Part shown: piece after piece, positions 1-64,000 of the stretch
Position numbering within the stretch: the stretch's first letter is position 1
Layout: each line of letters begins with the position of its first letter
Source of the DNA: Hemibagrus wyckioides
Taxonomy: Eukaryota; Chordata; Actinopteri; Siluriformes; Bagridae
Assembly (NCBI RefSeq): GCF_019097595.1
Contig: NC_080716.1
Span: forward strand, 8,306,640 to 8,370,639
Length of the DNA stretch: 64,000 bases
Direction of reading: 5' to 3'
Notes under the pieces: generated by a model
Databases searched by the model: none
What the model was told of the DNA's origin: nothing
The model's input: the letters and a program-made list of their open reading frames with translations, nothing else
Position numbers and translations under genes: made by a program

Positions 1-75
1 AAAAGGAAAGGAAGTAAAGGCCCAGGAGAGGGACATGAGGAGGAGGAAAGAAGAAAGTCCAGGTCAACAAAGCAG
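1..75 (+). pseudogene. E/K-rich gene, internal exon, copy A (partial)
   Basis: An exon remnant cut by the window edge. It reads as a basic/acidic stretch ending RRKSRSTKQ directly before a GT donor at 76. The same exon is complete on the minus strand at 33999-34127 (copy D), where the VDEE-type start and this KRKG-type end lie in different frames, so this exon class is frameshifted. It resembles the E/K-rich exon at 17101-17295, which ends RRKSGSSKQ. The continuation in A is the terminal exon at 3143-3237; a LINE fills the intron between. I do not recognise the protein. Confidence 0.5.
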
Positions 76-1609
76 GTATGAATATTCTCTCTGAACTTCA
101 GGACCAGTTTCAACACACCGACTGGAGCATGTTTGCCACTCAGGCGACCTGTGGTTCCCACTTGGATATTGAAGGCTACGCTTCCATTTAGGCCATTAGC
201 AACTATAAGCCCATCAACCCTTCACCCTACTGATATCTCCTTTCTCAATGAGTTAAACAACTTCTATGCTCGCTTTGAAAGGGATAATCTGGAGCCAGCA
301 ATCAAAATCGAGCTCCCGGCAGACTTCCAGCCACTCACACTCTCCACTAATGATGTCAGTGGAGTACTAAGCAGGATCAATGCATGGAAAGCTGCAGGGC
401 CTGATGGTGTCCCCGGACGTGTCCTCAGAGCACGTGCTGGGGAGCTGGCGGGGGTCCTTACGGACTTATTCAACCTGTCTCTAGCTATTGTGCCCACCTG
501 CCTTAAGACCACCTCCATCAGAACAGGAGCACGGAGGACACAGTATCCACAGCGCTGCACTCAGTACTCTCTCACGTGGACAATAAAGACACCTATGCCA
601 GAATGCTTTTCCTGGACTTTAGTTCAGCGTTTAACACTGTCATCCCTTCCAAGTTAGTCACCAAACTTGGAGACCTGGGCATCAATGCATCACTATGCAA
701 CTGGCTCCTGGACTTTTTGACCAACAGGCCCCAGCATGTTCGGATGGATCCCCAATGCTCTTCCACCCTCATCCTTGGCACTGGAGTACCTCAAGGCTGT
801 GTGCTGAGTGCTGTGTGGTGTGCTGACAACAACCTGCTGCTCAACACTACAAAGACCAAGGAGCTCATAGTGGACTTCAGGAATGAGAAAGGTGACACAC
901 ACGCACCCATTCATATCAATGGAGAGGTGGTGGACCGTGTCACTAGCTTCAAATTCCTGGGTATCCACATCTCCGAGGATCTCTCCTGGACTACCAACAG
1001 CTCCAGTCTGGTCAAGAAGGCTCACCAGTGCCTCTTCTTCCTGAGGGCTCTGAGGAAGAACCATCTCTCTTCAGACATCCTGGTGAACTTCTACTGTTGC
1101 ACCATCGAGAGCATTCTGACTGGCTGTATCACTGTCTGGTATGGTAACTGCACTGTGTCAGCCCGGAAAGCGCTGCAGAGGGTGGTAAAACCGCCCAACG
1201 CATCATAGGCGTTCCACTTCCTAAGATCGAGGACACTTACAGGAAGCGTTTGAGAGCACTCAAAATCATAAAGGATTTCTCTCACCCTGCCAATAGGCTC
1301 TTTGCCCTCCTGCCTTCTGGGAGGCGCTACAGGAGCCTCCGGACCAAGACAAGCAGGTTTAGGAACAGCTTTTTCCCCACAGCTGTTTCTTTGCTGAACT
1401 CTGCCTCTACCCGATCACTCACACATTGACTGAACACATTATTATCAGGGTATATAACCTTTTCTGTATATAACCCTTTCTGTGTACAGTTCACATATGC
1501 AAATATTTACCATGGTAAACAATATCTTCCTCACTGCATACATCTAAATCATTGCATTCATTGTACATAACTCCTTCTCTGAATACTGTTTACATATTTA
1601 ATTATTTAA

Positions 1610-2470
1610 ATATTAAATAATTAAATAAATAAACGGCTGGATGGCGTGGTCCGGCACTGCTGGGTTCAGCCATGTCTCGGTGAAGCAGAAGAGATTGCAG
1701 TCCCGAATGTCTCTCTGGAACTTTACCCTGGCCCTGAGGTCATCAAGCTTGTTCTCCAGCGACTGGACGTTGGCGAGCAGGATGCTAGGCAGAGGTGTGC
1801 TGTGTGCACGGGCGCTCAGCCTGTTCCTGACGCCGGCTCGTTTCCCTCGGGGCCGCCGCTTTGGGTCGCGTCCTTTGTTCTCCCTCAGGATCTCACTCGG
1901 CCAGCTTGGATCCGGGGTCAAAAACGTCGAATTGTGAGTACATTGTACACCAATAGAAATAAGAGTATCTCTATTGTAACGAACGTACTCCATGATGGAG
2001 AATTAGCCGGTATTACTGTACTGAAACTTAATTTAAAACACAAAAACAAAGAAAAAGTTGTAGGAGCAGTCGTGATGGCAGACAGGCCTCAGGCAGTACG
2101 GGTGGGCAACCATGTCTCACTCTCACTCACCCTCAGCACTGGAGCCCCCCAGGGTTGTGTTCTGAGCCCCCTGCTGTACTCTCTGTACACCTTTGACTGT
2201 GTGGCCACTTCCAGCTCCACCAACATCGTGAAGTTTGCGGACGATACTGTGGTGGTGGGCCTGATCTCCAATAACGACGAGACGGCCTACCTAGAGGAGA
2301 TTAAAAACCTGGTGCCAGGTCAACAATCTCCTCCTGAACGTCAGCAAGACTAAGGAGCTGATAGTGGACTTTAGCACAAAGCAGGAGAGGAATTACCAGC
2401 CCCTCACCATCAACGGGACCCCAGTGGAGAGAGTGGACAGTTTCCGTTACCTAGGTGTCTACATCACGCA

Positions 2471-2545
<75 letters not shown>

Positions 2546-2740
2546 TATTTTTTGTGTTTGTTTTTATACTTTTATATTTTTACACTTTTATATCTGTTAC
2601 ACTTTTTCTTTTACACATTTTCTTTCTATTCTTTCCTCTTTTATGTAAGACAGTCGTAAAAAGCATTTCACTACATGTCGTATTATGTATGATTTCGTAT
2701 GTGACAAATAAAATTTGAATATGAATTTGAATTTGATTTA
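1610..2740. mobile_element. Nested LINE fragments inside the first LINE's tail
   Basis: A composite insertion absent from the sister copy, where the flanks meet near 32270. The minus strand at 1993-1613 encodes a LINE endonuclease start (LLANVQSLENKLDDLRAR, then CFTETWLNP). The plus strand at about 2085-2480 encodes a reverse-transcriptase piece with GAPQGCVLSPLLYSL and the catalytic FADD box (near 2235-2250), running on to VDSFRYLGVYITQD. The latter is cut by a TA microsatellite, then a T-rich 3' UTR ends in an AATTTGAA-type tail near 2715-2740. At least two LINE insertions are present, one in each orientation. Confidence 0.75.
2473..2549. repeat. (TA)n microsatellite
   Basis: About 77 bp of nearly pure TA repeat lies immediately after the reverse-transcriptase piece. 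It probably expanded inside the element and can form cruciform DNA. Confidence 0.95.
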
Positions 2741-2975
2741 TTTTCATGGTATACAATACCTTCTTTATTGCACCGCCTATAATCATTTGCTCATTTGCAC
2801 TCATTGTATTTACCTCCCTCTGTATACTGTATATATACTGTTTATATATGCAAATTATTTATTTGTTTATATACTGATTATATATGCTAATTATTTGCAC
2901 TGCGAGAATGCACTTCTGGTTAGATGCTAACTGTATTTCGTTGCCTTGTACCCACATGTGCATTGACAATAAAGT

Positions 2976-3001
2976 TGAATCGAATCGAATCGAATCGAAT
3001 C
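2976..3001 (+). repeat. (GAATC)n LINE tail
   Basis: Five GAATC units close the LINE 3' end, as in the inverted copy at 31979-32001. They mark the 3' boundary of the insertion. Confidence 0.9.
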
Positions 3002-3142
3002 TTAATATCATGTCATGATGTCAGTAATGTACCTGGAGATCTGCTGATATTAAATTAATGAGGAATTGAAGTGCAACATTTTATCTGTGTCAATGAATAC
3101 AATCTAAACATTACACCACATTTAAAATGCTAATTTTTTTAG

Positions 3143-3237
3143 AAGTGGATGAGGCTGAAAACATGGTTCAGGAAGAAGCTGAGGATGAAGCTGTAGAAAG
3201 CAAGCCAGGCGATGCTCAACCAGAGAGCAGAAAATAA
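3143..3237 (+). CDS. E/K-rich gene, terminal exon, copy A
   Basis: A 95 nt last exon that follows a T-rich tract and an AG acceptor (3141-3142). It reads VDEAENMVQEEAEDEAV, then ESKPGDAQPESRK and a TAA stop. The first two nucleotides complete a GAA codon, so the exon needs a phase-1 donor upstream. The same exon occurs at 17423-17517, 45579-45673, 31836-31742 (minus) and 60734-60610 (minus, stop lost). The protein family is unknown to me. The charged, low-complexity sequence suggests a disordered, possibly nuclear protein, which is inference only. The gene converges on the mitoguardin-like gene, whose stop codon is at 5419-5421. Confidence 0.5.
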
Positions 3238-5200
3238 AGAAATTACCTGTCAACCAAGAAACAGCTTTTATATTAAACATCTGAAGATAAATTCTTAAAA
3301 ATAGACTTTTTTGTTGTTGTTACTGCTAATAAAATAAAAAATAAAAAACTGTTAAATTTCACTTGGCTCAATAATGGCTTTCATTTCCTCTGGAGTTACT
3401 GCACAGCTCTTTATATCTACTGCTCATAGATCACTTCTTAAGCAGTGAATTCCTAAAGATTAATAAATAAAAACGATCATTTTAATAAGAACAGCTTAAC
3501 TAAAACTGTGAAAATTGTGGTATTCACAGTGAATCTCCTTTATGATAATCCATCCGAGTGTCCCACACATTCATCTCATCAACCTCAGGATCAGACTTTA
3601 CTGTCTAAGTACTGTCTTACTGTCTTTGTGAAACAACACACACACACACACATTATAATACTTCTTCTTCTTAATACTCTATTCAATAAACTTTCCATGA
3701 GGAGTGATTATTTCTGCACATGCACTTTTATAGCAGCTTTATATAATACAAGGTCCTCTGAAGGTATTCTGAATTGTTCATTTCAACATCTTTTTTCTGT
3801 TGTTTTATCAAGCAGCTTGGAACTGCAACAATAGTAAATCAAGAATGAAGCAGAAGTAAAGAATGTCACTTTTTATTTCTTTGTGGTTATTGGTCAGATG
3901 GATACTGTTGAAATGTGTCTAACAGACAGTTATACAGGGATAAATCTGCATTATGCAGTCTGTAGGCCTAAGACAAGATAAAGAGTACATAATTGTCTAT
4001 GGAAAGAGAACAAGCTATTCAGGTGGTAAAAGAAAATACTGGTTTATTACCCAAAAGAAAATAAGAACATGAATGAATTAAATAACATGGAATAATGTTT
4101 TTTAACATGAATAAAATTTTACAAAATATTACATTTATTAAAAAGGATAGGTTAATAATAATGATATAATATCCATCTCATATACTTTTTCCAGGATTAC
4201 ATGTCACAAACATTGCCTCTTTATGATCTGAGTAAGAGTTTCTCCCACATAATACACAAGTGATTGTTGCTCCCTGGTTTTATTTATTGATGAAGACTCT
4301 ATGCCAAGATTACAGAGTATTACACAGATTTTAAATTATTACACAGTAGAGGTGTATCTAAAGGGCAGGCCAGGAAGTCGGGGTGTCCGGCAACGAGGGT
4401 GCAGCTCCGGTATCAACTAAATCTAGAGAGAGAGAGAGAGAAAGAGAGAGGGGAAGAGAGAAAGAGAGCATTTAACTTACATGGCTGTAGTGAAGACAGG
4501 AGAGGATGGGAACAGAAAGAGACTTCCTATGACACTGACTTGTGTTTACCACTGACTCAAAAATCATGAGCAGTACACTGACCCTTTCTCTGGTCAGCAT
4601 GATACCTCATGTAGAAAAGGTGGGGAACAGGTTGAAGGCCTTATCCTATTATTTACATTACTAGGAATACCAATTAATGATAATTACCTCATGTTTTTTA
4701 TTTATACCACACCCCAGTAACTGTATAGTGTATTGTAAGACCTTCATCTTGTTTTATCACTTCAATGTGGAGCTCCATTCTTTTCTGCCATTGTGTTCAT
4801 GCTTGTGTTTTTAGATTAAATAATATATTATATAATACATAAATACATTATATAATATAAAATGCTATTTTTTACATTTTAGTGAACCATTTAAAGATTG
4901 TGAAATTCTTTAAAAAGGATCTGTATATAAGTGAAAAATTCATTTTGTGTTGCTTTTTAAAGGAAAAATATACAGACATACTGATGACTAAAAATACTCA
5001 GAATGAGACTGAAATAGGAACAAATATAAAAATTTATTAAAATAAAGCATATAAGCACTATACAGATATAAGTTTATTTACAATCAATTCTACTTATCTA
5101 TTTATGAACTATAGGGTATTTATGGGAATGGGAGAGTGGGACAGGAATAGAGGGATAGATTAATAAGGGATGATTATTAAGGGATAAGGGATCTTAAGAT
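3238..5200. other. Convergent intergenic spacer of module M1
   Basis: No gene was found. It contains a short (CA)n at 3636-3652, a (GA)n-rich stretch at 4427-4470 and AT-rich DNA. A 470 bp block (about 4010-4482) is shared with M3 (59425-59878) but missing from M2 at about 30960. The putative poly(A) signal of the minus-strand gene (AATAAA on the complement) lies near 5033-5038. Confidence 0.7.
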
Positions 5201-5418
5201 AGGGTTAAGCCCTTCTTCAGTCCTGGGGTTCACTGTACAACCTGTAGGAAAAAAAAGAGATTTTAAAAATATCACATTAATCTAAAATAGAAATAAAATT
5301 AATTCATACTCACGTATGGAGAGCCTGAGCAATGTAGGAAAAAGAAGTGAGAGAAAAGAAGAAATATGAAATGAAACAGAGGAAGAAAAGATGAAGAGGG
5401 CAAAGGGAAAGACATTGC

Positions 5419-8400
5419 TCAGAGCTTCTCCAAAATGTTCATCATCTGCTGGATGTTCTGCTGGACGAGAATCTGAACTATGGAGGCTAAGGCTGCTGGG
5501 TTGCTGTAGAGCTCCAGAGGCTGAGTGAACAGTACTTCAAAAAGCTGTGTAAGGTGATCCTATTGACAAATGACACACAGATTCAACATAGTGTCACTGA
5601 GTTTAAGGTACAATCCTGAGAATTTGTGTATCGTGGCATCAGAAGATATTGGAACACTTACAATAAGCACTTTGAAGTACAGCTCTCCCGCAGGCTCCCA
5701 CACGTCTATATCCCACATGCTGATGAGCTGAAGCAGGCGCTCCAAGAATCCTCCCTTAAACTTTAGAAAAGAAAGACAACAGATTTCATTAATGCCATGT
5801 TTTATCAGGATTAAAAAATAAGGGAAAACAAAATGAGGTAAAATAGACCATGTTCTGAAACTTAAATCTCCTGATGAGACACTTACTAGCTGAGGTGTTG
5901 AGCCATTTTTAAAGAAGCCGAAGAGAATCAGCTCATAAAAAATATCCAGGAAGTTGTAGTGGTAGACCTGCACAGAGGAGTAAAGGTACAAAAAGAAATT
6001 AGCTTCACATATTGACGTTCAGTTTTCTATATTATCAAAATCTTTTCTGTTTAAACATCTGTCATTTCACACAGGCGTTTATTAGCTTACATCGGGCCCG
6101 GAGAGCTCTGCTTTAATCGAATCCTGATATGAAGGCGTCCTCAGGAATCGAATCAGGGCCTCGTATGCCAACTGCACACCAACTACATCCTGTTCAAACA
6201 AACAAGAAAATCTCTGTAACTCACTTTGGCTATGACTGAGTAACTGAAAGGATGTTCATCACAAAAATCAAACAGTCTTTCATCATTCTAAAGTCACCTG
6301 GTTGTTAGCTGCTGCCAGTCGCATAACAATCCTTTTTCCCACCACGAACAAGAAGTCCTGGATGTGGATGCTGGCAAGCAAAGTCTGAATATAAGACAGC
6401 ACACGATATACGTTAAAGCAGAGTGGACTTTATCTGCGCAATAACAGCAGCTGAAGAAAGGTTTTACTCACAGCGAACGCCTCACGGACAGCGGGCACCT
6501 TCAGGCCGAAGTCAGTCACCCCTCTTTCTAAGAGATGGCAGCTAAGGAAGAAGAGATGTAAATGCTTAGTGTGTGTTAAACATACAATACACTATTACAT
6601 CAATAAACAGTGAATAGGATCGTACCAAATAAAGGGCACCTCCATCTCCACCTCCTCCTCATTCTCCTGCAATCCGAATCATTAAATCATTAAAACTCAC
6701 ACAGTAAATTTTACAGGATCCGAATCAGGGGAATAGCAACATATGTAGATACACATCAGATCTGAAGCTCGGAATTACCTCAGAGTCGTTCTGGTCATAC
6801 TCCCAGGTGGAGGTGTACAGCTGCCCATCTCCAGCCACATACAGGTAATCGCAGGTTACCGTTTTAACGGTTTTGTGCTGAATAAAAAAAATATATTGTT
6901 ACTGCAGACAAATAAAAGTACATCTGACAAAATTCCAAAAGTTACTAACTACAATATACACTTCATGACAGTGCAATAAATTTACCGTGTTATAATGTGG
7001 CACGATGAACGATGTCTCCACTCGGTTACAGGAGATGAACTCTGTAACCCTCCCAGATTCAGACTTAAAAGAACAATTTAAAGTGAACACAATTAGTCAC
7101 TGCAATTAGCAAAAGTTTCCTAATGCCACAACGAATAATCCCTTACCTGTATGCCAGAGAAACAATCCTCTATGGTGGTGTGATAAGGGAATCCCTGCAA
7201 ATGACAAATAGATGGAACTCAAGATCTATTTCACAAATGTGAGCATCTAATAATCATCAAGGTCAATTCTCTTCCTCAGAATAATCAAGTCTGTGATTAC
7301 CAGGTGAGTCAAGCAGTGTGTCGTGGTGGTTTTAAACCAACACAGACGACTCTGTGGGCCCCTTATCATCCCCAAGAAGTAGGACTTCATGTCCACTGAC
7401 TGGAAATAGAGAAACAAAACTAGACATCAGAACTTGTAAAGAAGGGTGTTTGTGTGTTTGTATCTCAGTTGCTGCACTGTAGAATACCTTAAACTGGGAG
7501 ATGGAGGGGTCTGAAGAGAGGAACTGTATGTTTCGGTGGGCGCTGATCAGCTCACCAGCATCGAGTGGCTGTGTAAAGAAAAGCAGGAAGATCGTGAATG
7601 CTTCTGATCATAGCAGCTTCATACTAATATTCTATAGCTTTCCTTAAAGCTCTGGTTACCAGAAAAACAGGTGAAGAGTCTTGGTCTTCTTCAATAGGCA
7701 GCAGCTGAACAGTTGGCTCAACAACCTTAAAACACACAAACAAAATTAGTCACCGCAATTACCATAATTTTACAATGCCACAATGAATAGTCCCTTACCT
7801 GAATGCCAGTGAATCTCCCCTCATAGCTGGTATAATAAGGGAATCCCTGCAAATGACAATTAGATGAAGTTCAAGAACCACATTTCAACAAAATGCTAAA
7901 AACCATGTCAATTTAAAAATGTCCATTCCCTTCACCAGAGTAATAAAGACTGTGATTACCTCGAGAGTCAAGCAGCATGTCTCTGCGGTGTCAAAGTAGT
8001 AGAGCCGACTCTCTGGACCCCTTATCATTCCAGCTATGTCTCTTCTAATGTCCACTGGCTAGAAATAGAGAAACAAAAGTAAACATTAGAACTTGTAAAG
8101 AAGGGTGTTTGTGTGTTTGTATCTCAGCTGCAGCACTGTAGAATACCCCAGACTGGGAGAGGGAGGAGTCTGCAGACATGCACTGGACATCGCGGCAGGC
8201 GTTGTTCGGCTCATCAGCATCGAGCGGCTGTGAAATGGAGAGCATGAAGATCATAAGTGCTTCTTATCAAATCAGATTCATACTAACATTCTTTACAGTA
8301 AACACAACCTTGTAAAATCTATTGATTGGTTTTAGTAAATAAATGAATGATTTGTTTACCAGAATGACAGCTGAAGGCTCGTCCTGAGGTTCGGGGGGCA

Positions 8401-8433
8401 GAAGCTGCAGGATTGGCTCAACGACCTTAACGT

Positions 8434-8469
<36 letters not shown>

Positions 8470-9782
8470 AGACAAAAGTGACCTACAGGTTTCAAATGAA
8501 GTTAAATATTACTATTTATCAGACACATACCTGGAGGACAGAGGGAGTACCTACTGATTCCCCCAGCACATCCACAGGCTCTGTAATAAAATCACTTTTA
8601 TGGGACTCAGAATTCTGACTCTTCAATTACACAACATCAAACTTTCCTATTAATGCTTAATAACCTGTCAAGTTTGATAATTAGTTAACTTGTGAAGAAA
8701 CAGACAAATTGTAGCAGTCAGATTGTGTAAATTCACTGTACATGTGAACTGATTAAACTCTCTAAAACCTCCTGCCCCTATCCACCACCCAAATCTATAC
8801 AAATATTATACTGTGTAATTATTAAAACTGAGTTCATCAAGCTAACTAGCTTCATACTCACTATGATATTGTGTAAATAAAATGATTAGTGAAGTTCTCT
8901 AGGTAGATAACATACACCTGTAACCAAGCCCTTTAGGAGAGCTGATTAATCAGTAGTCTAAACATGATTTAGTGTAAAACCAGTAGTCAGGGTTGTTAAA
9001 AGTCACTTTTTAATGGGGATGAATATTATATTGTAGAAATAAATGAAATTCTCGTTGTTCAAGCTCATCAACTCGGTTCAGGATTTTAGTGTCTTTAAAC
9101 CAACAGCCAAGTTCGCTAGCAGCTTAACTAACATTAGGCTAAACATTATATTTATATTATATTTACCAATTAATTGCGTAATAATTACAACAAATAGACA
9201 GGTTCTCTAGAGCTTGAGAATATGATAAGTTGTAGATATGATTAGTCCAACTATTACAGTGTCATTTAAATCGCTAAAAATCGGCTAAAGTCTGTTAGCG
9301 CGCTAGCTGGAGAATCACAAGGCTAAGCATGATTTAGTGTAAAACCAGTAGCCAGGGCTGTTAAAAGTGACCTACTAACAGGGTAAATTATTCATTGTAG
9401 AAATAAAATACATTCTTGAACCAAGTTTAAGGACTTTATTGTGTAATTTAAACCAGTAGCCAAGTTCGCTAGCACGATAACTAGCATGAGGCTAATTGTT
9501 AGCAGTAGATGAGGTCGCTTGTTAGCTACATAACATTAGACTGTAACACTGTACCTTCTACTGGATTCATTGTAAAATCAGTGAGACATTAAAGTCACGA
9601 GGTAGGATAAAGCTCCTCCTACCTTGAGGAAGCTCAGTGTGGTCAGGAGGAGCTCTTTCTGTCCGGAGGCTGCGGTAAATGAAGTATCCCGCACCGGCAG
9701 ACAGAGTGACCAGACCCGCAGCACAGGCGATCTCACCCAGAGTCCAGTTCTTCAGTCCCTGAAGAAATCCTCGGATAGACAT
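5419..9782 (-). CDS. Mitoguardin (MIGA/FAM73)-like protein, copy 1, 19 coding exons, apparently intact
   Basis: Spliced CDS of 1593 nt (530 aa). Exons, 5' to 3': 9782-9623, 8580-8531, 8425-8360, 8227-8147, 8058-7960, 7846-7799, 7725-7660, 7568-7488, 7399-7301, 7194-7147, 7063-6986, 6877-6779, 6666-6626, 6541-6472, 6384-6298, 6189-6091, 5967-5887, 5760-5662, 5559-5419. All have GT-AG borders and agreeing phases. Residues about 15-37 form one hydrophobic membrane segment followed by RSLRTER, as expected for an outer-mitochondrial-membrane anchor. Exons 3-6 and 7-10 are an internal duplication of identical exon lengths (22/27/33/16 codons). From exon 14 on the order VREAF..LL, DFLFVVGKR, AYEALIRFL, AEL.GPDV, NFLDI..ELILFGFF and a C-terminal LYFKVLI..LTQLFE resembles the C-terminal part of mitoguardins, which promote mitochondrial fusion and contact. 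The family call rests on remembered motif order. It is divergent and could be a fish-specific paralogue. A non-coding 3' UTR exon probably lies near 5200-5245. Confidence 0.68.
8800..9500 (-). repeat. Diverged tandem duplication inside intron 1
   Basis: Two blocks about 360 bp apart repeat the same series. A TGATTTAGTGTAAAACCAGTAG motif occurs near 8965 and again near 9329, followed by similar TTAAAAGT and TGTAGAAATAAA runs and a CAAGTTCGCTAGC motif (near 9108 and 9464). All three gene copies contain it, so it predates the triplication. No coding potential was seen. Confidence 0.65.
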
Positions 9783-10060
9783 GGTGTGGTCAGAAGTCCT
9801 TCGTTGAAAGTCGCTGGTTGTAGAGTTGACTTGTAGAGTTGTAGATCTGTAGAGTTGTGGTGATGGAGACGATGTTTATCTGTTGCCACGCAGAAACTCA
9901 ATGCAGGTTTTGACTTGAAACTACTCGATGAACGCGTCATCACCATGGAGACAGTTTAAATACAAATAAACCACTCTACAGCAGCGATGACGCAGATGAC
10001 GTCAAAGATGAAGAGATGCGACCCCACGTGCGGATTGGGGTCACGGAGATGATGATGATG
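9783..10060 (-). promoter_or_regulatory. Putative promoter/5' UTR of mitoguardin-like copy 1
   Basis: Upstream of the ATG (reading the minus strand) lie a perfect palindromic CRE (TGACGTCA, 9997-10004), a CACGTG E-box (10025-10030) and a CCAAT box (complement of 10034-10038). All three sites recur in the same order before copies 2 and 3. The 5' UTR carries repeated ACTCTACA-like words. The sites suggest CREB/ATF and bHLH (USF/MYC-like) input; this is motif-based inference. Confidence 0.55.
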
Positions 10061-10066
10061 ATGATG

Positions 10067-10111
<45 letters not shown>

Positions 10112-10140
10112 GTTAGTCTTGTTATCGTCACTATTTATCA
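10050..10140. repeat. (GAT)n/(TTA)n microsatellite at the arm end
   Basis: A short GAT run and then about 42 bp of TTA repeat. Homology with the inverted arm at 25300-25380 fades just beyond it, so it marks the breakpoint of the inverted duplication. Confidence 0.85.
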
Positions 10141-12090: not shown

Positions 12091-12233
12091 TCCAACATCG
12101 ACAAGCACATTTATAGGCCCCAGTAAATCTGGCCTAGTGCCCCTGAAACCGCTGCACTACATGGCTCGTAACAGACAAAATCGCCAGGGGTCCTGTTTGC
12201 CAGGTCGCTGCCCAAAGATGGCCCTGCGCCCGC

Positions 12234-12322
12234 CCTTCGATAGCTCAGCTGGTAGAGCGGAGGACTGTAGGTGCTTATAAATGGACATCCTTAGGTCGCT
12301 GGTTCAAATCCGGCTCGAAGGA
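12234..12322 (+). tRNA. tRNA-Tyr (GTA), intron-containing
   Basis: Acceptor stem CCTTCGA/TCGAAGG with discriminator A. D-arm TAGCTCAGCTGGTAGAGCGG, anticodon GTA at 12267-12269, a 17 nt intron at 12271-12287 right after position 37, and T-arm GGTTCAAATCC. Eukaryotic nuclear tRNA-Tyr genes characteristically carry an intron here. It is duplicated at 40452-40540. Confidence 0.95.
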
Positions 12323-12405
12323 CAGCTTTTACTAGCCGCCGGGAAGTTTCAGTGAACCCACTTCTTGCAGCTGCTAGCTCTAGCCGGACACGAAAAACAG
12401 TTCGC

Positions 12406-12477
12406 TTCCCTGGCCGGGAATCGAACCCGGGCCGCGGCGGTGAGAGCGCCGAATCCTAGCCACTAGACCACCAGGGA
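12406..12477 (-). tRNA. tRNA-Glu (TTC)
   Basis: On the minus strand: acceptor TCCCTGG/CCAGGGA, TGGTCTAGTGGCTAGGATTC with anticodon TTC (complement of 12451-12453), and a standard T-arm GGTTCGATTCC. 72 nt, no intron. It lies 83 bp from the divergently oriented tRNA-Tyr. Confidence 0.95.
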
Positions 12478-13005: not shown

Positions 13006-13006
13006 T

Positions 13007-13039
<33 letters not shown>
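13006..13039. repeat. (TAGA)n, about 8 units
   Basis: A tetranucleotide tail at the 3' end of the minus-strand LINE. The corresponding tract in unit 2 (41198-41281) has about 21 units. Confidence 0.95.
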
Positions 13040-51545: not shown

Positions 51546-51559
51546 CTGGCTTTTTTTTT

Positions 51560-51890
51560 TTTTTCTGCTGGGGCAGTGGCATCTCTGCTGCACACAGGAA
51601 GAGAGTGGATAAAATCGTAAAGATAAAGATCTGTCCTTCGATGCAATCTCAATCCAGTGGAAGAAAGGAGGATGATAGCCAAGCTATCATGTATGTTGGA
51701 GAACGACTCTCACCTCATGCATGAGACTCTGGGCAGCTCCAGAAGTGGCAGACTACTTCACCCCAAGTGTGTGAGAGAGCAGTACCGTAGGTCTTACCTC
51801 CCTGCTGCTGTGAGACTGTACAACCAGCACTGCTACCAGCAGACCCTTCCACAACCTGGACAACACATCATTGGGATTTCTACTATATAA
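51560..51890 (+). mobile_element. LINE ORF2 C-terminal scrap, unit 2
   Basis: As 23090-23420. The frame is better preserved here: KCVREQYRRSYLPAAVRLYN. Confidence 0.6.
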
Positions 51891-51909
51891 GATTACATTT
51901 CATTATTAT

Positions 51910-53032
51910 TATTACTAATTCAATTCAATTCATTTTATTTGTATAGTGTTTTTAACAATGGGCGTTGTCTCAAAGCAGCTTTAAAGAAGTAGAGAAACAG
52001 AGAAAGAAAAAATATATATATTTATAAGTTTAAACTTACTATTTTATCTCTATTTTATCCCTAATGAGCAAGCCTGTGGCTATGGTGCCAAGGAAAAACT
52101 ACGTGTGATGATATGAGGAAGAAACCTTGAGAGGAACCGGGCTCAGAACGGATCCCATCCTCATTTGGGTGAAACTGGAAAGTAAATAATGTAACTGTAA
52201 CTGATTAATGTCCTTTCTACAACAACAAACAAGAGCTCAAGGGGAACTATTAGGTTAGTGTAGTAACTGAGCCCATTATAGACATTAATTCCTTGCTGTC
52301 GCAAGCTGACAGATCTAACGGCACATCCGTGACAGTGTGAAAGTCCCCAAGTGGCTCTGTCCACAGCTGTCTCCTAGTCACAGGCTGTCCACACAGATCC
52401 ATTCACAGCATCAGTGAGCACCACCAAGCACTGAGACTCCGACCAGGGGTAGAGCCAGTGATCACACTGTAAACTCAGAACACTGGGAGCTCTGGAGTGG
52501 GACATAGAGCTCGATGGAGAAAGACAGAGGGAGAGAGAAATATATTAGGTATGCTTGTGATCGTGTGATGTTTAAAGACAATGTAGATTAAGTGTAAAGT
52601 GCAGGCAGGGACTCCGGCAAGACTAGCCAAGACAGCATAACTAAAAGGGAGAGCCAGAAGTTGACAGACATGAAGGCTTCCTGGGAAATAAAGCATCCAA
52701 CCACTTCACAGTCAGCAAACCTGAGCGACTTGTGAGGGTGGTAAGATGACAGCATCCAAACATCCCAGTACACCAAACACTCTATGACCATGAATCTTCC
52801 AGATCTGCTCCTTTACCTAAGAAAAACTATACATTGAAAGCTTCACTAAACAAATGTGTCTTTAGCCTAGACTTAAACATTGAGACTGTGTCTGAATCCC
52901 GAACAATATTTGTTAGGCTGTTCCATAACTGTGGGGCTTGAGGTATTACCAAATAAACAGCAACCTTGGATCGGAGTAGGTGTGGCAGATCATAAACAAC
53001 CAAAAGATCACTCAGGTACTTTTACTAGTCCA
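51910..53032 (-). mobile_element. LINE 3' UTR in reverse orientation, unit 2
   Basis: As 23450-24567. Confidence 0.65.

Positions 53033-53080
<48 letters not shown>
53033..53080. repeat. (ATT)n, about 16 units
   Basis: Counterpart of 24569-24624. Confidence 0.95.
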
Positions 53081-53786
53081 CTTCTGTATATTTAAATTTT
53101 ATATTTATATATTTATCTGTTTGTCGTTTTAAATCTATAATATCAGTTACAATTTATAAAAGTCACTTTGTCTTGATATTATCCTTTTCTTTAGCTGCTA
53201 TACCTTTACCGCTGCAACTATGCAAATTTCCTCGCTGTGGGCCGAATAAAGAATGAGAAATGGAGAAAAAGGATTGTTGAATTTTTTAGTGACGCATTTA
53301 TGAGTACTGTGTTCACATTTACAAAGCTCTTCACACAGTTAGAGCAACAACAGTCTATGTGGACTAAATTGTATATCACCTTTCATTGTTTTGACACAAA
53401 GCATTAAATAACCTCAACTTTCAGCTTCATCTATTCTTTTCTCGTTCAAACTCACCCTTTAACAAAACTATGTGTATCTACAGATCTACATTTACATTCT
53501 GTTTTCAAAACTAATCAATATCATTAAAAACAAGCAGATTATTTGTCTAATGAAATATATTTATTTAAAGTTGTAAACATTTAAACATAGAAACCAATAG
53601 ATTAAAAAATAAATAAACTAATAAAGAAGTAAAGTTTATTATTAAGTAAGTGAATTGTTAAAGGATTAAGTATATATTAATATATAAGTGTAATTAAAGT
53701 AAATTAGTGCATTAAAGTGTGTGTTAACAATAAGAACACCATAATAGTCATTTTTATTACAGTCATTAATAACGATAACAACAACC

Positions 53787-53787
<1 letters not shown>

Positions 53788-53837
<50 letters not shown>

Positions 53838-53838
53838 C
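53788..53838. repeat. (ATA)n, about 17 units
   Basis: Counterpart of 25333-25354 (about 7 units). Lies at the edge of the mitoguardin module. Confidence 0.95.
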
Positions 53839-53839
53839 G

Positions 53840-54121
53840 ACATCATCATCATCATCTCCGTGACCCCAATCCGCACGTGGGGTCGCAGCTCTTCATCTTT
53901 GACGTCATCTGCGTCATCGCTGCTGTAGAGTTGTTTATTTGTATTTAAACTGTCTCCATGGTGATGATGCGTTCATCGAGTAGTTTCAAGTCAAAACCTG
54001 CATTGAGTTTCTGCGTGGCAACAGATAAACATCGTCTCCATCACCACAACTCTACAGATCTACAACTCTACAAGTCAACTCTTCAATCAGCGACTTTCAA
54101 CGAAGGACTTCTGACCACACC
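53840..54121 (+). promoter_or_regulatory. Putative promoter of mitoguardin-like copy 3
   Basis: CCAAT at 53866-53870, CACGTG at 53874-53879 and TGACGTCA at 53900-53907, in the same order and spacing as before copies 1 and 2. Confidence 0.55.
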
Positions 54122-57100
54122 ATGTCTATCCGAGGATTTCTTCAGGGACTGAAGAACTGGACTCTGGGTGAGATCGCCTGTGCTGCGGGTCTGGTCACTC
54201 TGTCTGCCGGTGCGGGATACTTCATTTACCGCAGCCTCCGGACAGAAAGAGCTCCTCCTGACCACACTGAGCTTCCTCAAGGTAGGAGGAGCTTTATCCT
54301 ACCTCGTGACTTTAATGTCTCACTGATTTTACAATGAATCCAGTAGAAGGTACAGTGTTACAGTCTAATGTTATGTAGCTAACAAGCGACCTCATCTACT
54401 TCTAACAATTAGCCTCATGCTAGTTATCGTGCTAGCGAACTTGGCTACTGGTTTAAATTACACAATAAAGTCCTTAAGCTTGGTTCAAGAATGTATTTTA
54501 TTTCTACAATGAATTATTTACCCTGTTAGTAGGTCACTTTTAACAGCCCTGGCTACTGGTTTTACACTAAATCATGCTTAGCCTTGTGATTCTCCAGCTA
54601 GCGCGCTAACAGACTTTAGCCGATTTTTAGCGATTTAAATGACACTGTAATAGTTGGACTAATCATATCTACAACTTATCATATTCTCAAGCTCTAGGGA
54701 ACCTGTCTATTTGTTGTAATTATTACACAATTAATTGGTAAATATAATATAAATAAAATGTTTAGCCTAATGTTAGTTAAGCTGCTAGCGAACTTGGCTG
54801 TTGGTTTAAAGACACTAAAATCCTGAACCGAGTTGATGAGCTTGAACAACGAGAATTTCATTTATTTCTACAATATAATATTCATCCCCATTAAAAAGTG
54901 ACTTTTAACAACCCTGACTACTGGTTTTACACTAAATCATGTTTAGACTACTGATTAATCAGCTCTCCTAAAGGGCTTGGTTACAGGTGTATGTTATCTA
55001 CCTAGAGAACTTCACTAATCATTTTATTTACACAATATCATAGTGAGTATGAAGCTAGTTAGCTTGATGAACTCAGTTTTAATAATTACACAGTATAATA
55101 TTTGTATAGATTTGGGTGGTGGATAGGGGCAGGAGGTTTTAGAGAGTTTAATCAGTTCACATGTACAGTGAATTTACACAATCTGACTGCTACAATTTGT
55201 CTGTTTCTTCACAAGTTAACTAATTATCAAACTTGACAGGTTATTAAGCATTAATAGGAAAGTTTGATGTTGTGTAATTGAAGAGTCAGAATTCTGAGTC
55301 CCATAAAAGTGATTTTGTTACAGAGCCTGTGGATGTGCTGGGGGAATCAGTAGGTACTCCCTCTGTCCTCCAGGTATGTGTCTGATAAATAGTAATATTT
55401 AACTTCATTTGAAACCTGTAGGTCACTTTTGTCTAAGTGTGTGTGTGTGTGTGTGTGTGTGTGCACGTTAAGGTCGTTGAGCCAATCCTGCAGCTGCTGC
55501 CCCCCGAACCTCAGGACGAGCCTTCAGCTGTCATTCTGGTAAACAAATCATTCATTTATTTACTAAAACCAATCAATAGATTTTACAAGGTTGTGTTTAC
55601 TGTTAAGAATGTTAGTATGAATCTGATTTGATAAGAAGCACTTATGATCTTCATGCTCTCCATTTCACAGCCGCTCGATGCTGATGAGCCGAACAACGCC
55701 TGCCGCGATGTCCGGTGCGTGTCTGCAGACTCCTCCCTCTCCCAGTCTGGGGTATTCTACAGTGCTGCAGCTGAGATACAAACACACAAACACCCTTCTT
55801 TACAAGTTCTAATGTTTACTTTTGTTTCTCTATTTCTAGCCAGTGGACATTAGAAGAGACATAGCTGGAATGATAAGGGGTCCAGAGAGTCGGCTCTACT
55901 GCTTTGACACTGCAGAGACATGCTGCTTGACTCTCGAGGTAATCACAGTCTTTATTACTCTGGTGAAGGGAATGGACATTTTTAAATTGACATGGTTTTT
56001 AGCATTTTGTTGAAATGTGGGTCTTGAATTTCATCTAATTGTCATTTGCAGGGATTCCCTTATTATACCAGCTATGAGGGTAGATTCACTGGCATTCAGG
56101 TAAGGGACTATTCATTGTGGCATTGTAAAATTATGGTAATTGCGTTGACTAATTTTGTTTGTGTGTTTTAAGGTTGTTGAGCCAACTGTTCAGCTGCTGC
56201 CTACTGAAGAAGACCAAGACTCTTCACCTGTTTTTCTGGTAACCAGAGCTTTAAGGAAAGCTATAGAATATTAGTATGAAGCTGCTATGATCAGAAGCAT
56301 TCACGATCTTCCTGCTTTTCTTTACACAGCCACTCGATGCTGGTGAGCTGATCAGCGCCCACCGAAACATACAGTTCCTCTCTTCAGACCCCTCCATCTC
56401 CCAGTTTAAGGTATTCTACAGTGCAGCAACTGAGATACAAACACACAAACACCCTTCTTTACAAGTTCTGATGTCTAGTTTTGTTTCTCTATTTCCAGTC
56501 AGTGGACATGAAGTCCTACTTCTTGGGGATGATAAGGGGCCCACAGAGTCGTCTGTGTTGGTTTAAAACCACCACGACACACTGCTTGACTCACCTGGTA
56601 ATCACAGACTTGATTATTCTGAGGAAGAGAATTGACCTTGATGATTATTAGATGCTCACGTTTGTGAAATAGATCTTGAGTTCCAGCTATTTGTCATTTG
56701 CAGGGATTCCCTTATCATACCACCATAGAGGATTGTTTCTCTGGCATACAGGCAAGGGATTATTCGTTGTGGCATTAGGAAACTTTTGCTAATTGCAGTG
56801 ACTAATTGTGTTCACTTTAAATTGTTCTTTTAAGTCTGAATCTGGGAGGGTTACAGAGTTCATCTCCTGTAACCGAGTGGAGACATCGTTCATCGTGCCA
56901 CATTATAACACGGTAAATTTATTGCACTGTCATGAAGTGTATATTGTAGTTAGTAACTTTTGGAATTTTGTCAGATGTACTTTTATTTGTCTGCAGTGAC
57001 AATATATTTTTTTATTCAGCACAAAACCGTTAAAACGGTAACCTGCGATTACCTGTATGTGGCTGGAGATGGGCAGCTGTACACCTCCACCTGGGAGTAT

Positions 57101-58471
57101 GACCAGAACGACTCTGAGGTAATTCCGAGTTTCAGATCTGATGTGTATCTACATATGTTGCTATTCCCCTGGTTCGGATGCTGTAAAATTTACTGTGTGA
57201 GTTTTAATGATTTAATGATTCGGATTGCAGGAGAATGAGGAGGAGGTGGAGATGGAGGTGCCCTTTATTTGGTACGATCCTATTCACTGTTTATTGATGT
57301 AATAGTGTATTGTATGTTTAACACACACTAAGCATTTACATCTCTTCTTCCTTAGCTGCCATCTCTTAGAAAGAGGGGTGACTGACATCGGCCTGAAGGT
57401 GCCCGCTGTCCGTGAGGCGTTCGCTGTGAGCAAAACCTTTCTTCAGCTGCTGTTATTGCGCAGGTAAAGTCCACTCTGCTTTAACGTATATTGTGTGCTG
57501 TCTTATATTCAGACTTTGCTTGCCAGCATCCACATCCAGGACTTCTTGTTCGTGGTGGGAAAAAGGATTGTCATGCGACTGGCAGCAGCTAACAACCAGG
57601 TGACTTTAGAATGATGAAAGACTGTTTGATTTTTGTGATGAACATCCTTTCAGTTACTCAGTCATAGCCAAAGTGAGTTACAGAGATTTTCTTGTTTGTT
57701 TGAACAGGATGTAGTTGGTGTGCAGTTGGCATACGAGGCCCTGATTCGATTCCTGAGGACGCCTTCATATCAGGATTCGATTAAAGCAGAGCTCTCCGGG
57801 CCCGATGTAAGCTAATAAACGCCTGTGTGAAATGACAGATGTTTAAACAGAAAAGTTTTTGATAATATAGAAAACTGAACTTCAATATGTGAGGCTAATT
57901 TCTTTTTGTACCTTTACTCCTCTGTGCAGGTCTACCACTACAACTTCCTGGATATTTTTTTTGAGCTGATTCTCTTCGGCTTCTTTAAAAATGGCTCAAC
58001 ACCTCAGCTAGTAAGTGTCTCATCAGATTTAAGTTTCAGAACATGGTCTATTTTACCTCATTTTGATTTCCCTTATTTTTTAATCCTGATAAAACATGGC
58101 AAAAAGTCTGTTGTCTTTCTTTTCTAAAGTTTAAGGGAGGATTCTTGGAGCGCCTGCTTCAGCTCATCAGCATGTGGGATATAGACGTGTGGGAGCCTGC
58201 AGCAGAGCTGTACTTCAAAGTGCTTATTGTAAGTGTTCCAATATCTTCTGATGCCACGATACACAAATTCTCAGGATTGTACCTTAAACTCAGTGACACT
58301 ATGTTGAATCTGTGTGTCATTTGTCAATAGGATCACCTTACACAGCTTTTTGAAGTACTGTTCACTCAGCCTCTGGAGCTCTACAGCAACCCAGCAGCCT
58401 TAGCCTCCATAGTTCAGATTCTCATCCAGCAGCACGTCCAGCAGATGATGAACATTTTGGAGAAGCTCTGA
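54122..58471 (+). CDS. Mitoguardin (MIGA/FAM73)-like protein, copy 3, 19 coding exons, apparently intact
   Basis: Exons: 54122-54281, 55324-55373, 55473-55538, 55671-55751, 55840-55938, 56052-56099, 56173-56238, 56330-56410, 56499-56597, 56704-56751, 56835-56912, 57020-57118, 57231-57271, 57356-57425, 57513-57599, 57708-57806, 57930-58010, 58130-58228, 58331-58471; 1593 nt, 530 aa, all phases agree. The intron after exon 10 has a GC donor (56752), where copies 1 and 2 have GT. The product has a membrane segment (residues about 15-37), the duplicated exon 3-6/7-10 block, an acidic ENEEEVEMEV patch (exon 13) and the MIGA-like C-terminus. Differences from copy 1 are few: R/Q, V/M, C/Y, I/F, F/Y, A/G and I/V substitutions were seen. 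The ATG is the first in a short 5' UTR downstream of the CRE. A 3' UTR exon follows at about 58649, with AATAAA at 58852-58857. Confidence 0.7.
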
Positions 58472-60609
58472 GCAATGTCTTTCCCTTTGCCCTCTTCATC
58501 TTTTCTTCCTCTGTTTCATTTCATGTTTCTTCTTTTCTCTCACTTCTTTTTCCTACATTGCTCAGGCTCTCCATATGTGAGTATGAATTAATTTTATTCC
58601 TATTTTAGATTAATGTAATATTTTTAAAATCTCTTTTTTTTCCTACAGGTTGTACAGTGAACCCCAGGACTGAAGAAGGGCTTAACCCTATCTTAAGATC
58701 CCTTATCCCTTAATAATCATCCCTTATTAATCTATCCCTCTATTCCTGTCCCACTCCCTCATTCCCATAAATACCCTATAGTTCATAAATAGATAAGTAG
58801 AATTGATTGTAAGTAAACTTATATCTGTATAGTGCTTATATGCTTTATTTTAATAAATTTTTATATTTGTTCCTATTTCAGTCTCATTCTGAGTATTTTT
58901 AGTCATCAGTATATCTGTATATTTTTCCTTTAAAAAGCAACACAAAATGAATGTTTCACTTATATACAGATCCTTTTTAAAGAATTTCTTTTAAATGGTT
59001 CACTAAAATGTAAAAAATAGCATTTTATATTATATAATGTATTTATGTATTATACAATATATTATTTAATCTAAAAACACAAGCATGAACACAATGGCAG
59101 AAAAGAATGGAGCTCCACATTGAAGTGATAAAACAAGATGAAGGTCTTACAATACACTATACAGTTACTGGGGTGTGGTATAAATAAAAAACATGAGGTA
59201 ATTATTATTAATTGGTAATCATAGTAATGTAAATAATAGGATAAGGCCTTCAACCTTCCCTCTGCTCTGTTCCCCACCTTTTCTACATGAGGTATCACGC
59301 TGACCAGAGAAAGGGTCAGTGTACTGCTCATGATTTTTGAGTTAGTGGTAAACACAAGTCAGTGTCATAGGAAGTCTCTTTCTGTTCCCATCCTCTCCTG
59401 TCTTCACTACAGCCATGTAAGTTAAATGCCCCCCCCAACCCCAGATTTTGTTGATCCCGGAGCTGCACCCTCGTTGCCGGACACCCCGACTTCCTGGCCT
59501 GCCCCTTTAGATACACCTCTACTGTGTAATAATTTAAAATCTGTGTAATAATCTGTAATATTGACATGTAATGCTAAGGAGGAATCTTCATCTATCTTCA
59601 TCAATAAATAAATCCAGGGAGCAACAATCACTTGTGTATTATGTGGGAGAAACTCTTACTCAGATCATAAAGAGGCAATGTTTGTGACGTAATCCTGGAA
59701 AAAGTGTTATATGAGATGGATATTATATCATTATTATTAACCTATCCTTTTTAATAAATGTAATATTTTGTAAAATTTTATTCATGTTAAAAAACATTAT
59801 TCCATGTTATTTAATTCATTCATGTTCTTATTTTCTTTTGGGTAATGAACCAGTATTTTCTTTTACCACCTGAATAGCTTGTTCTCTTTCCATAGACAAT
59901 TATGTACTCTTTATCTTATCTTAGGCCTACAGACTGCATAATGCAGATTTATCCCTGTATAACTGTCTGTTAGACACATTTCAACAGTATCCATCTGACC
60001 AATAACCACAAAGAAATAAAAAGTGACATTCTTTACTTCTGCTTCATTCTTGATTTACTATTGTTGCAGTTCCAAGCTGCTTGATAAAACAACAGAAAAG
60101 AGATGTTGAAATGAACAATTCAGAATACCTTCAGAGGACCTTGTATTATATAAAGCTGCTATAAAAGTGCATGTGCAGAAATAATCACTCCTCATGGAAA
60201 GTTTATTGAATAGAGTATTAAGAAGAAGAAGTATTATAATGTGTGTGTGTGTTGTTTCACAAAGACAGTAAGACAGTACTTAGACAGTAAAGTCTGATCC
60301 TGAGGTTGATGAGATGAATGTGTGGGACACTCGGATGGATTATCATAAAGGAGATTCACTGTGAATACCACAATTTTCACAGTTTTAGTTAAGCTGTTCT
60401 TATTAAAATGATCGTTTTTATTTATTAATCTTTAGGAATTCACTGCTTAAGAAGTGATCTATGAGCAGTAGATATAAAGAGCTGTGCAGTAACTCCAGAG
60501 GAAATGAAAGCCATTATTGAGCTGAGTGAAATGTAACAGTTTTTTATTTTTTATTTTATTAGCAGTAACAACAAAAAAAGTCTATTTTTAAGAATTTATC
60601 TTCAGATGT
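58472..60609. other. Convergent spacer of module M3
   Basis: Retains the 470 bp block (59425-59878) lost in M2, plus a C-run at 59430-59436 and a short (GT)n at 60240-60253. No gene. Confidence 0.7.
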
Positions 60610-61057
60610 TTAATATAAAAGCTGTTTCCTGGTTGACAGGTAATTTCTGCTCTCTGGTTGAGCATCGCCTGGCTTGCTTTCTACAGCTTCAGCCTCAGCT
60701 TCGTCCTGAACCATGTTTTCAGCCTCATCCACTTCTAAAAAAAAAATCTTGATTAGCTTTTTCAATATGATGTAATGTTTAGATTGTATTCATTGACACA
60801 GATAAAATCTTGCACTTCAATTCCTCATTAATTTAATATCAGCAGATCACCAGGTACATTACCGACATCATGACATGATATTAATACCTGCTTTGATGAC
60901 CCGGACTTTCTTCTTTCTTCTGCCTCGTGTCCCTTTTTGGTCCATTTCTTCTTCTCCTTTTCACAGCTGGTGCTTTCCACAGCAGATGTGCTGTTCTCTG
61001 GTTCTACAGCTTCGGACTCAGCTTCAGCCTGAACCAAGTTTTCAGCCTCATCTACTT
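60610..61057 (-). CDS. E/K-rich gene, copy E, stop codon lost
   Basis: Exon 61057-60863 (195 nt, same extended donor as B and C) joins terminal exon 60734-60610 in frame. A 9 nt deletion relative to copy D (where TTTATTTTC is present) removes the usual AAA-TAA, so the frame reads on through RNYLSTRKQLLY to a stop at 60612-60610. A remnant of the first exon type lies at about 61262-61215. Function unknown. Confidence 0.5.
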
Positions 61058-61262
61058 CTGAAAAGAATTTGCATTTTACATGTGGTGTAATGTTTAGATT
61101 GTATTCATTGACACAGATATAATGTTTCATATCAATTCCTCATTAATTTAATATCAACAGATCTCCAGGTACATTGCTGACATCATGACATGATATTAAT
61201 ATTCATACCTGCTTTGTTGACCAGGACTTTCTTCTTTCCTCCTCCTGGTGTCCCTCTCGTGG

Positions 61263-62230
61263 GCCAGAAACAAAATCATGATTCACAATTAAAATCTGAT
61301 ATAAAGTTTTGACTAAATTAATTGACACAGATAAACTTCATTATTATTGATATTTATTACATAATTAGGAAATAATATACAATGTCTTAAACACTACCAC
61401 TATTGACATTTTTGATTATTAATAATACTTTTTTATTAATAAAGGATGAATTTGTATTTTTTTTAAACTTTTTTTTAATTTTGTTTAGTTACTTATTTCT
61501 TTGAGTAGTTGATGTTCAGAGGGATCGTGTGCAGTTTAGTTTACAGTTAAAGAGCTGTATCAGTGTGAGTGATTGCTTTTACAAACTTCTTCTGGAAAGT
61601 TACATGATACACAATTTATTTATTTTATTTTATTTTTCAGCTTCTGTCTGCAGCACCTTCAAGCATTTATCTTATGAACATTGTCCATGTCGGTTTTGTG
61701 GTATCCTGAACTAAATATTATTATCACAATGGAAAATGCTTCCTGGATTGACCACTAGGTGTCACTGTGTGATTACTGCTGTTAATATGCTCTCACTAGT
61801 TACTGAGAGAGTTGAGTTTTTGGGCTGAAAATGAAGAAAATCTAATCGGTTGTATGCCAGGTTCATTTTTGTTCATTTACTTACTCATTTTCTGGCTGCT
61901 CGTCATTTCAGCGGTTTTCATAAAGACATTAATATAATTAACATTAAACTAGCATCCAGAGTCTGCTTGTCATACATTGCTGAGAGAAACATTGGGATCA
62001 TGAGTGTCTGAGAAATTACAAGCTTCTTACAGATTTCTTTTTTTAATGCTAAAGTCAGCCCTGTTCTGTTGTTTATGTCCATAATAGGTAAACATTTCTG
62101 TGTCAGAGTTTCATACAGTTAGAGGATGAACTGATTTACATGAGAGCATTGTGTATAACATGCCCCATACAGGAAGTATTTATATTTATACATTTTTTAT
62201 ACTGTGTAGTAATTATACTTTGTTTATCAG
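61263..62230. other. Spacer between E/K-rich gene and nol7, copy E
   Basis: As 34128-35091; no gene supported. Confidence 0.5.
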
Positions 62231-62452
62231 GGAGAAAGAGTTACTGAAGGAGAAGAGCGAAAAAGACTTAGTTACTTTTCCCCGAACAAAAGGTACAAAC
62301 CTTTGCATAGTAAACTTTCATATTTAAGCAATGCAAATGTTTTAAAGTCTTTGTAATTGCCTAATGTTTCTAAGCTCTAATTATTACTCATGTATTGTTT
62401 AATGCTTCGAAGAAAAGCAGACTTTTACCAGAAGCTCTTTTAGAAAAGCTGG
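62231..62452 (+). pseudogene. nol7: nol7 fragment, copy E
   Basis: Exon 62231-62292 has lost one G in the KEKRRK codons and is frameshifted; CCCCGAACAAAAG replaces CCAAGAACAAAAG. The second exon, from about 62413, reads KSRLLPEALLEKL and runs into the inverted 570 bp repeat as in B and C. Confidence 0.6.
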
Positions 62453-62890
62453 GGAACAATAGTCTGTTTCGGGTGGGGAAGAAAGGAAAAAAATGGGGAA
62501 GAAGGGGAAAGAGAGAAAAAGAGAAAAAAAGAGAAGAAAATGTGCGTTTTTACAAACAAATCAGAAAAAATTCAAGTCCCCCTCCCATCCACACTGATCC
62601 GGCTCGAATCCCACCTCAGACAAGGATTAAATATTGCATTTTGTTTAGAAATGGCAACTGTTAGTCTACAGAAACAGTCCTGCTGTCAAAATGAGTCAAG
62701 TTCTAAGTCCGGTGTAGTTAGCTGACTTCAATTATTTAATTATCTGCAAAATATGACCTACTGTTAGAAATATTGTCTGACACACACCATAACAATATAC
62801 ATAAGTGATGAATTATTATAAGATACTAACAAAGTATAGAAATCTATAAACGAAAAACTACCAATATTTATATTATTAAGTATAGATTTA
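62445..62890 (-). repeat. Unclassified dispersed repeat, copy 4 (shortened)
   Basis: Inverted copy of 15175-15748 with internal losses in the purine-rich tract (62470-62540). The CGGCTCGAATCCCACC box is at 62601-62616. Confidence 0.7.
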
Positions 62891-62919
62891 ATAATATAAA
62901 TAAAAAAAAAGTTAAGGAT

Positions 62920-63992
62920 ATTTGGCTTTCGGGTGAAATTTCAGGATGCACCTAAAATGCACTATAACCTTTACAGGTGAACTTAATTTGACCTTCTCTA
63001 CACTTTTGAATGCACATGTCCAACTGTTCAGTGTTTCAGTACTTTTTGCATAACTTGCTGTTTTCTAACAAGATGCTTAATGGCAAAATTCACAACTGGT
63101 GTTTGATCCATGAATCGACCAATACATTTTCTGGTTCAATTAGAATTGGTATTTAAACAGTCCTCTTCATCATGCTGTTCACATTTTGACATCATGAGAC
63201 ACCAAGACCATACCTAACAATTGATCAACAGTACCTCACCATTGCGAGGCTTCAGACAGGATGTTCTCAGAGGGAAGTGGCCACTGAGCTTAGAGTGTCA
63301 CAGAGTGTCATCAGCAGGTTGCGAAAGAGATACAGAGAGACTGGAAGAGTCACAGAAAGGCATAGAAGTGGACGTCCTTTGGCCACATCCCGCGTTGATG
63401 ACCGCTTCATTGTGAACAGTGCCCTGCGGTACCGGATGATGAATGCCACTCAACTCCAGGCACATTTAAGGGAGATGAGAGGCACCCAAGTGTCATGTCA
63501 GACCATTTGAAACCGTTTACATCAATGTGTTCTGTGTGCTAGACGACCTGCAAAGGGTACCTGACCACACCACCAGGCACAGGCGTCGGGCCAGGGAGCT
63601 TTTACGCTGGATGAGGGACCAGTGGACCTCAGTGCTGTTCTCTGATGAAAGTCAATTCACGTTGAGCAGAAATGATGGCTGCCAACGATGTTGGAGACGT
63701 CAAGGAGAGCGCTATGCATCAGCCACTGTTGTGGTGGTGTTACAGTCTGGGCAGGTGTGTCTACTCAATACAGAACTACATCTTGTGAATGGTACAGTGA
63801 CAAGCCAATACTACCTGAATAACATCATTAATCCAGTTATTGTGCCCCTGCATGAACAACACAGGCCTAATTTCTTCATCATGGACGACAATCCTCCGGC
63901 TCAACGAGGTCGCATCATTAGGGAACAGCTGCTGGAGGCTGGGGTACCTCAAATGGAGTGGCCTGCACTTTCTCCAGACCTTCCAGAAATCT
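62920..63992 (+). mobile_element. Truncated Tc1-like transposon, copy E, plus start of the LINE fusion
   Basis: Plus-strand version of 14089-15140: helix-turn-helix and GRP box (63230-63400), VLFSDESQFTL (near 63635) and FIMDDNPPAQRGR (near 63885), ending SPDLPEI and then CTAACAGCAG, the same LINE junction. It lacks about 75 bp found in the other copies after VCLLNTEL, which happens to keep one long frame open (63527-63994). Confidence 0.85.
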
Positions 63993-64000
63993 AACAGCAG

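Follow-up and report, generated by a model that had tools for sequence, protein, structure and literature searches.

Mitoguardin moves fats between mitochondria and neighbouring compartments. There are two such proteins in mammals, MIGA1 and MIGA2 (Pfam PF10265), with a hydrophobic N-terminal stretch that anchors them in the mitochondrial outer membrane, a linker containing a coiled coil and a C-terminal, all-helical lipid-transfer domain, which has membrane-docking handle helices and a strictly conserved lipid-head arginine (R177 in worm and R357 in human). Two kinds of multi-copy locus are also instructive for comparison, namely the ampliconic palindromes of sex chromosomes, where a gene block occurs in inverted and tandem copies and the arms of known Y palindromes are >99% identical, and the tandem families of fishes. 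Here we analyse a 64-kb stretch of the catfish Hemibagrus wyckioides genome (contig NC_080716.1, positions 8,306,640 to 8,370,639; hereafter the window), which contains three copies of a mitoguardin-like gene set in large repeats.

We propose, with a probability of roughly 0.72, that the window represents one cluster in a multigene family of catfishes, derived from mitoguardin, which grew by duplication of a cassette and by exchange among the resulting copies. The proposal is based on the repeats themselves, two intact 19-exon genes, a catfish family dispersed over many scaffolds and a patchy pattern of divergence, together with a kinship to mitoguardin that the sequence makes evident and that the predicted fold of a relative also shows.

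Organisation of the repeat units

The window has 38.8% G+C, is free of N and is dominated by kilobase-scale repeats, which were mapped by BLAST of the window against itself. Repeats of this length and identity far exceed chance, and, like segmental duplications, they are >1 kb long, at least 90% alike and not merely transposon. Unit 2 (12149..35307, + strand) and unit 3 (40368..64000, +, continuing past the window end) are tandem partners, with 12149-16903 corresponding to 40368-45152, 16993-19754 to 45149-47897, 20948-30960 to 49448-59427 and 30958-31977 to 59873-60884. A further copy, u1 (1..10128, -), is an inverted copy of the right half of the unit, gene plus arm. Specifically, 3002-10128 is the reverse complement of 60884-53772 (7179 columns, 97.0%) and 4470-10106 that of 30960-25314 (98.1%), while the outer pieces 2738-4019 and 515-1250 match 32268-30958 and 33142-32391, respectively.

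Within both units the mitoguardin-like gene is flanked by inverted arms, delimited by self-BLAST and substitution counts. In unit 2 the left arm (14071..18020, +) holds nol7 and E/K-rich fragments and transposon pieces, and the inverted right arm (31251..35307, -) has a piece of a long interspersed nuclear element (LINE) inside. In unit 3 the left arm lies at 42321..46166 (+) and the inverted right arm at 60166..64000 (-), again continuing past the window end, the latter being the reverse complement of the former in three pieces. A preliminary description made from the sequence had placed an inversion between 1-10140 and about 25300-34130 and a tandem duplication between 12151-35280 and 40369-62450, and both agree closely with these blocks (the tandem boundaries being 12149 and 40368); the right-end inversion that it gave as 61000-63992 against 42339-45450 also holds, and is larger than had been thought.

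A mitoguardin-derived gene and its catfish relatives

Splice sites in the aligned copies gave a gene model of 19 exons. Copy 1 (u1, 5419..9782, -) and copy 3 (u3, 54122..58471, +) have an intact frame, with no stop within 530 codons, although the exon 10 donor of u3 is GC and not GT. In copy 2 (u2, 25640..29999, +) exons 6, 8, 9 and 17 are put out of frame by small indels. The three mitoguardin-like genes anticipated earlier are therefore present as three copies, two of them intact. There are 19 one-base indels among the copies over 5.7 kb and 16 of these belong to u2 (5 in exons, 11 outside), nine of the 16 falling in runs of at least three equal bases, as judged by eye from the printed contexts, whereas private substitutions are even over the copies (36 in u1, 34 in u2 and 40 in u3). 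We have not adopted the view that u2 is a decayed pseudogene, because such a concentration of indels alongside even substitutions resembles an unpolished consensus; consensus error is the likelier source of its frame breaks, albeit not proved. Retroposition of the gene is ruled out by its retained introns.

Moreover, the gene is duplicated internally. Exons 3-6 and 7-10 (26996..28277, +) pair with each other by BLAST at 76-78%, and in the intact copies the two blocks are equal in size, at 66, 81, 99 and 48 bases each.

The spliced product carries the C-terminal mitoguardin lipid-transfer domain by sequence, which, with the agreement of a relative's predicted fold, justifies the label mitoguardin-like; searched one by one, the open frames of the gene yielded no match over the Pfam cut-off because its exons are short. 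The conserved lipid-head arginine corresponds to R358 of the window protein, which is invariant in our family alignment A1. The protein also has a hydrophobic N-terminal stretch, a candidate membrane anchor, with a mean hydropathy of 1.57 at residues 18-36, second to a value of 1.61 at residue 360 of the same protein. There are differences as well. The window protein is about 40 residues shorter at the position where mitoguardin would have its handle helices, a shortfall that lies between two matched stretches of which the second scores only 0.9 bits. The linker contains the duplicated exons, and catfishes have many copies against two in mammals. In a pattern test for the VAP-binding motif known as two phenylalanines in an acidic tract (FFAT), the strict form was found in 0 of 70 proteins and the relaxed form in 8 of 70, none of these being window proteins, and we therefore call the latter mitoguardin-derived and not mitoguardin. 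The eight (P0012, P0015, P0016, P0019, P0020, P0021, P0041 and P0042) have YFSSQS or YSSSQS after an acidic residue; these linker motifs may resemble the core of a phospho-FFAT motif, which we take as a lead only, and the window copies are without the aromatic residues.

The product probably remains a membrane-anchored lipid carrier, given that it retains the invariant arginine and the helices that bind lipid. Its membrane-docking handle appears to have become shorter and its linker to have been remade by exon duplication, and thus its role may differ from that of ordinary mitoguardin.

Three protein searches (40, 55 and 27 matches), each scoring the 7993-7995 candidates with the most words in common, returned at least 68 different relatives from seven catfish species: Hemibagrus guttatus (30), H. 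wyckioides (15), Trichomycterus rosablanca (8), Tachysurus vachellii (7), T. fulvidraco (4), Ictalurus furcatus (3) and T. ichikawai (1). These figures should not be read as gene counts, because the proteins are clusters at 90%, isoforms are among them and some species are represented by two assemblies. True mitoguardins were absent from the matches of these searches, whose depth is too small to prove absence of the family outside catfishes. Relatives lie on 8 scaffolds longer than 1 Mb in H. wyckioides, as told apart by their lengths, 4 in Trichomycterus rosablanca and 4 in Tachysurus fulvidraco; three Trichomycterus members share a single contig, and 21 of the 30 H. guttatus members are on contigs shorter than 100 kb. 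From rough pattern counts, the linker unit is repeated several times in some H. wyckioides members (P0010, P0012).

A tree of 41 rows was built from u1, u3 and 39 of the 58 proteins known at that stage, namely those with 150-259 residues from the VPFI/PFI motif onward, the other 19 being dropped. It contains clades of 7 and 5 rows private to H. guttatus, some of which may represent one gene in two assemblies, and a clade of 6 rows private to H. wyckioides, four of which are sequence-identical isoforms. The window copies group together at 100/100, inside an eight-member clade with H. guttatus and Tachysurus (support 97/93). The earlier suggestion of a recently expanded family is borne out by these private clades, by the relatives in seven species and by the 1.33-1.41% difference between the window copies. 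Among open-licence full texts we found no paper on expansion of a mitoguardin family in catfishes. In fish tandem families such as the ApoD clusters, copies are likewise clustered and grow in a lineage-specific manner, but the founder here is a mitochondrial lipid-transfer protein and exon blocks within the gene multiply as well.

It would be unusual for a membrane-contact protein to become a large and changing family in which copy number grows within genes as well as among them, and the members would serve as naturally occurring variants with which to learn what parts of the lipid-transfer domain can be dispensed with. More tentatively, and in our view rather unlikely, this could be a conflict-type family, in which the lipid core was kept, the handle and the tether to the endoplasmic reticulum were lost, the linker grew and clusters multiplied with conversion; if so, the pattern would hint at a pathogen, mitochondrial or germ-line arms race played out at the membranes of organelles.

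As a separate observation, the 1226-residue gene model of P0041 from H. guttatus has a Tc1-like transposase between two mitoguardin-like copies, a layout that may be a sign of tandem copies or of joined annotation.

Divergence among copies and alternative explanations

In this section identities count substitutions only. The gene copies are 98.6-98.8% alike overall and constitute three distinct sequences; u1 and u2 are 97.3-98.8% alike over three pieces (98.8% for the gene piece) and u1 and u3 98.6%. Divergence between units 2 and 3 is patchy. It amounts to 1.0% across 18-31 kb, where the values per kb range from 0.37 to 1.6%, falls to 0-0.44% per kb across 13-17 kb and reaches 2.7-4.3% at the two ends. 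A stretch of 1756 aligned columns (13758-15514) is free of substitutions, and none of 5000 uniform permutations of the 171 substitutions in 18408 columns, one overlapping BLAST piece being omitted, gave one as long. Within the gene, sites at which one copy is the odd one show mild clustering, forming 61 runs where 74 would be expected (P = 0.006). Both results are compatible with gene conversion.

The proposed history would begin with a cassette consisting of an arm with nol7 and E/K fragments, the mitoguardin-like gene and an inverted arm. This cassette would have been duplicated in tandem, with its right half additionally copied in inverted orientation, and the resulting copies would be able to pair in several registers, so that unequal exchange and gene conversion could alter the number of copies and carry patches of sequence from one to another. 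Exchange among copies is, we infer, the engine of growth.

A number of results weigh against this proposal. Patchy identity could also be imitated by mis-assembly or uneven mutation. Between u1 and u3 exons and introns differ by almost the same amount (1.00% and 1.02% substitutions), and 10 replacement and 6 silent changes (dN, replacement rate, 0.0083; dS, silent rate, 0.0163) give a dN/dS of about 0.5 from 16 changes only. Indels between these copies number 0 in exons and 4 in introns, which is weak given that about 2.3 would be expected by proportion, and purifying selection on the gene copies is thus barely shown. Furthermore, the fold comparison was made on the relative P0044, the window protein being compared by sequence alone; Foldseek with the predicted model gave no match at E ≤ 0.001 (best 1.5e-3), and a first model (P0001) was poor (predicted local distance difference test score 35.9) and went unused. 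In the VIA-align fold comparison no other family stood out, which excludes none.

The most serious alternative is that a single locus is represented twice, its two haplotypes having been assembled one after the other as units 2 and 3, with the structure partly mis-joined. The excess of one-base indels in u2 is a mark of poor polishing, the long identical stretch at 13758-15514 would fit, and intron divergence of 1.0-1.3% is little above allelic levels, the X/Y divergence of yellow catfish being below 1% (PMC9945428). However, the similarity of u2 to u3 is no greater than that of either to u1, the window is N-free and relatives elsewhere also show several members on one scaffold. Three distinct sequences, each with its own private substitutions, exceed the two alleles of one diploid locus, and therefore no fewer than two loci must exist, provided that the DNA came from one fish. 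We regard an artefact as unlikely. The locus is also a caution that clusters of this kind may come out fragmented or poorly polished in assemblies of catfish genomes.

The preliminary description also raised a sex- or B-chromosome amplicon, which in the manner of Y palindromes would be maintained by arm-to-arm conversion. A gene within inverted arms and an additional inverted copy recall such structures, but the arms are 96.7-96.8% alike in unit 2 and 98.3-98.7% in unit 3, short of the >99% of sex-chromosome palindromes, and the relatives are scattered over many large scaffolds, which bears on the relatives and not on the window's own location. The idea thus lacks support and seems to us improbable. 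A term search of the yellow catfish X/Y paper (PMC9945428) showed none of the words mitoguardin, amplicon and palindrome.

Least plausible of all is a large mobile element whose ends are the inverted arms and which carried the gene between sites. The family is dispersed, each of the two units has its gene set between inverted arms, a transposase-like frame occurs in the arms (63479-63991, DDE_3 E 0.08, under the curated Pfam cut-off), and in H. guttatus some gene models are fused with reverse transcriptase or Tc1-like sequence (P0014, P0041). Yet the arms also carry host-gene fragments, u2 and u3 have a common tandem boundary (12149/40368) instead of separate insertion sites, and the joined models may be annotation errors.

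Fragments and boundaries of the arms

Five E/K-rich gene copies and four nol7 pieces had been reported, and the counts stand for single exons, the pieces being fragments and not whole genes. The last E/K exon is present five times, starting at 3143, 17423 and 45579 and, on the - strand, at 31836 and 60734; sequence comparison places a two-exon fragment at 17100..17518 (+) and the other copies of this exon at 3143-3238 and 45579-45674 (+) and at 31741-31836 and 60641-60734 (-). One nol7 exon occurs four times (15880, 44131 and, reversed relative to the query, 35177 and 62314), with a 29-base remnant of the neighbouring exon at 12034. The fragment at 15721..15982 (-), of about two exons, matches human NOL7 in the PDB (E 1.2e-7), and sequence comparison places further fragments near 43972-44233 (-), 35073-35307 (+) and 62213-62473 (+).

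The LINE piece (31978..34127, -) is common to unit 2 and u1, where 515-1250 matches 33142-32391 and RVT_1 falls in 507-1205, and is absent from unit 3. Conversely, a segment of about 450 bases is present in u1 (4020-4470) and unit 3 (59427-59873) and absent from unit 2. We do not take this pair of patterns to prove exchange, because unit 2 may have lost the segment by deletion; the segment could equally be an insertion, and its ends carry AAT, a 3-base microhomology or target duplication. Pfam analysis of 9 distinct further frames (10 queries, two near-identical) gave a single match, to reverse transcriptase, under the cut-off.

An Rfam scan of the window detected tRNAs only. A tRNA-Tyr(GTA) and tRNA-Glu(CTC) pair, copied along with the tandem unit (12234-12477 and 40452-40669), stands just within its left boundary. 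The left end of u1 lies inside an ATT/TTA microsatellite (10071-10152), which recurs at the matching sites 25314-25360 and 53787-53837 and is a possible breakpoint.
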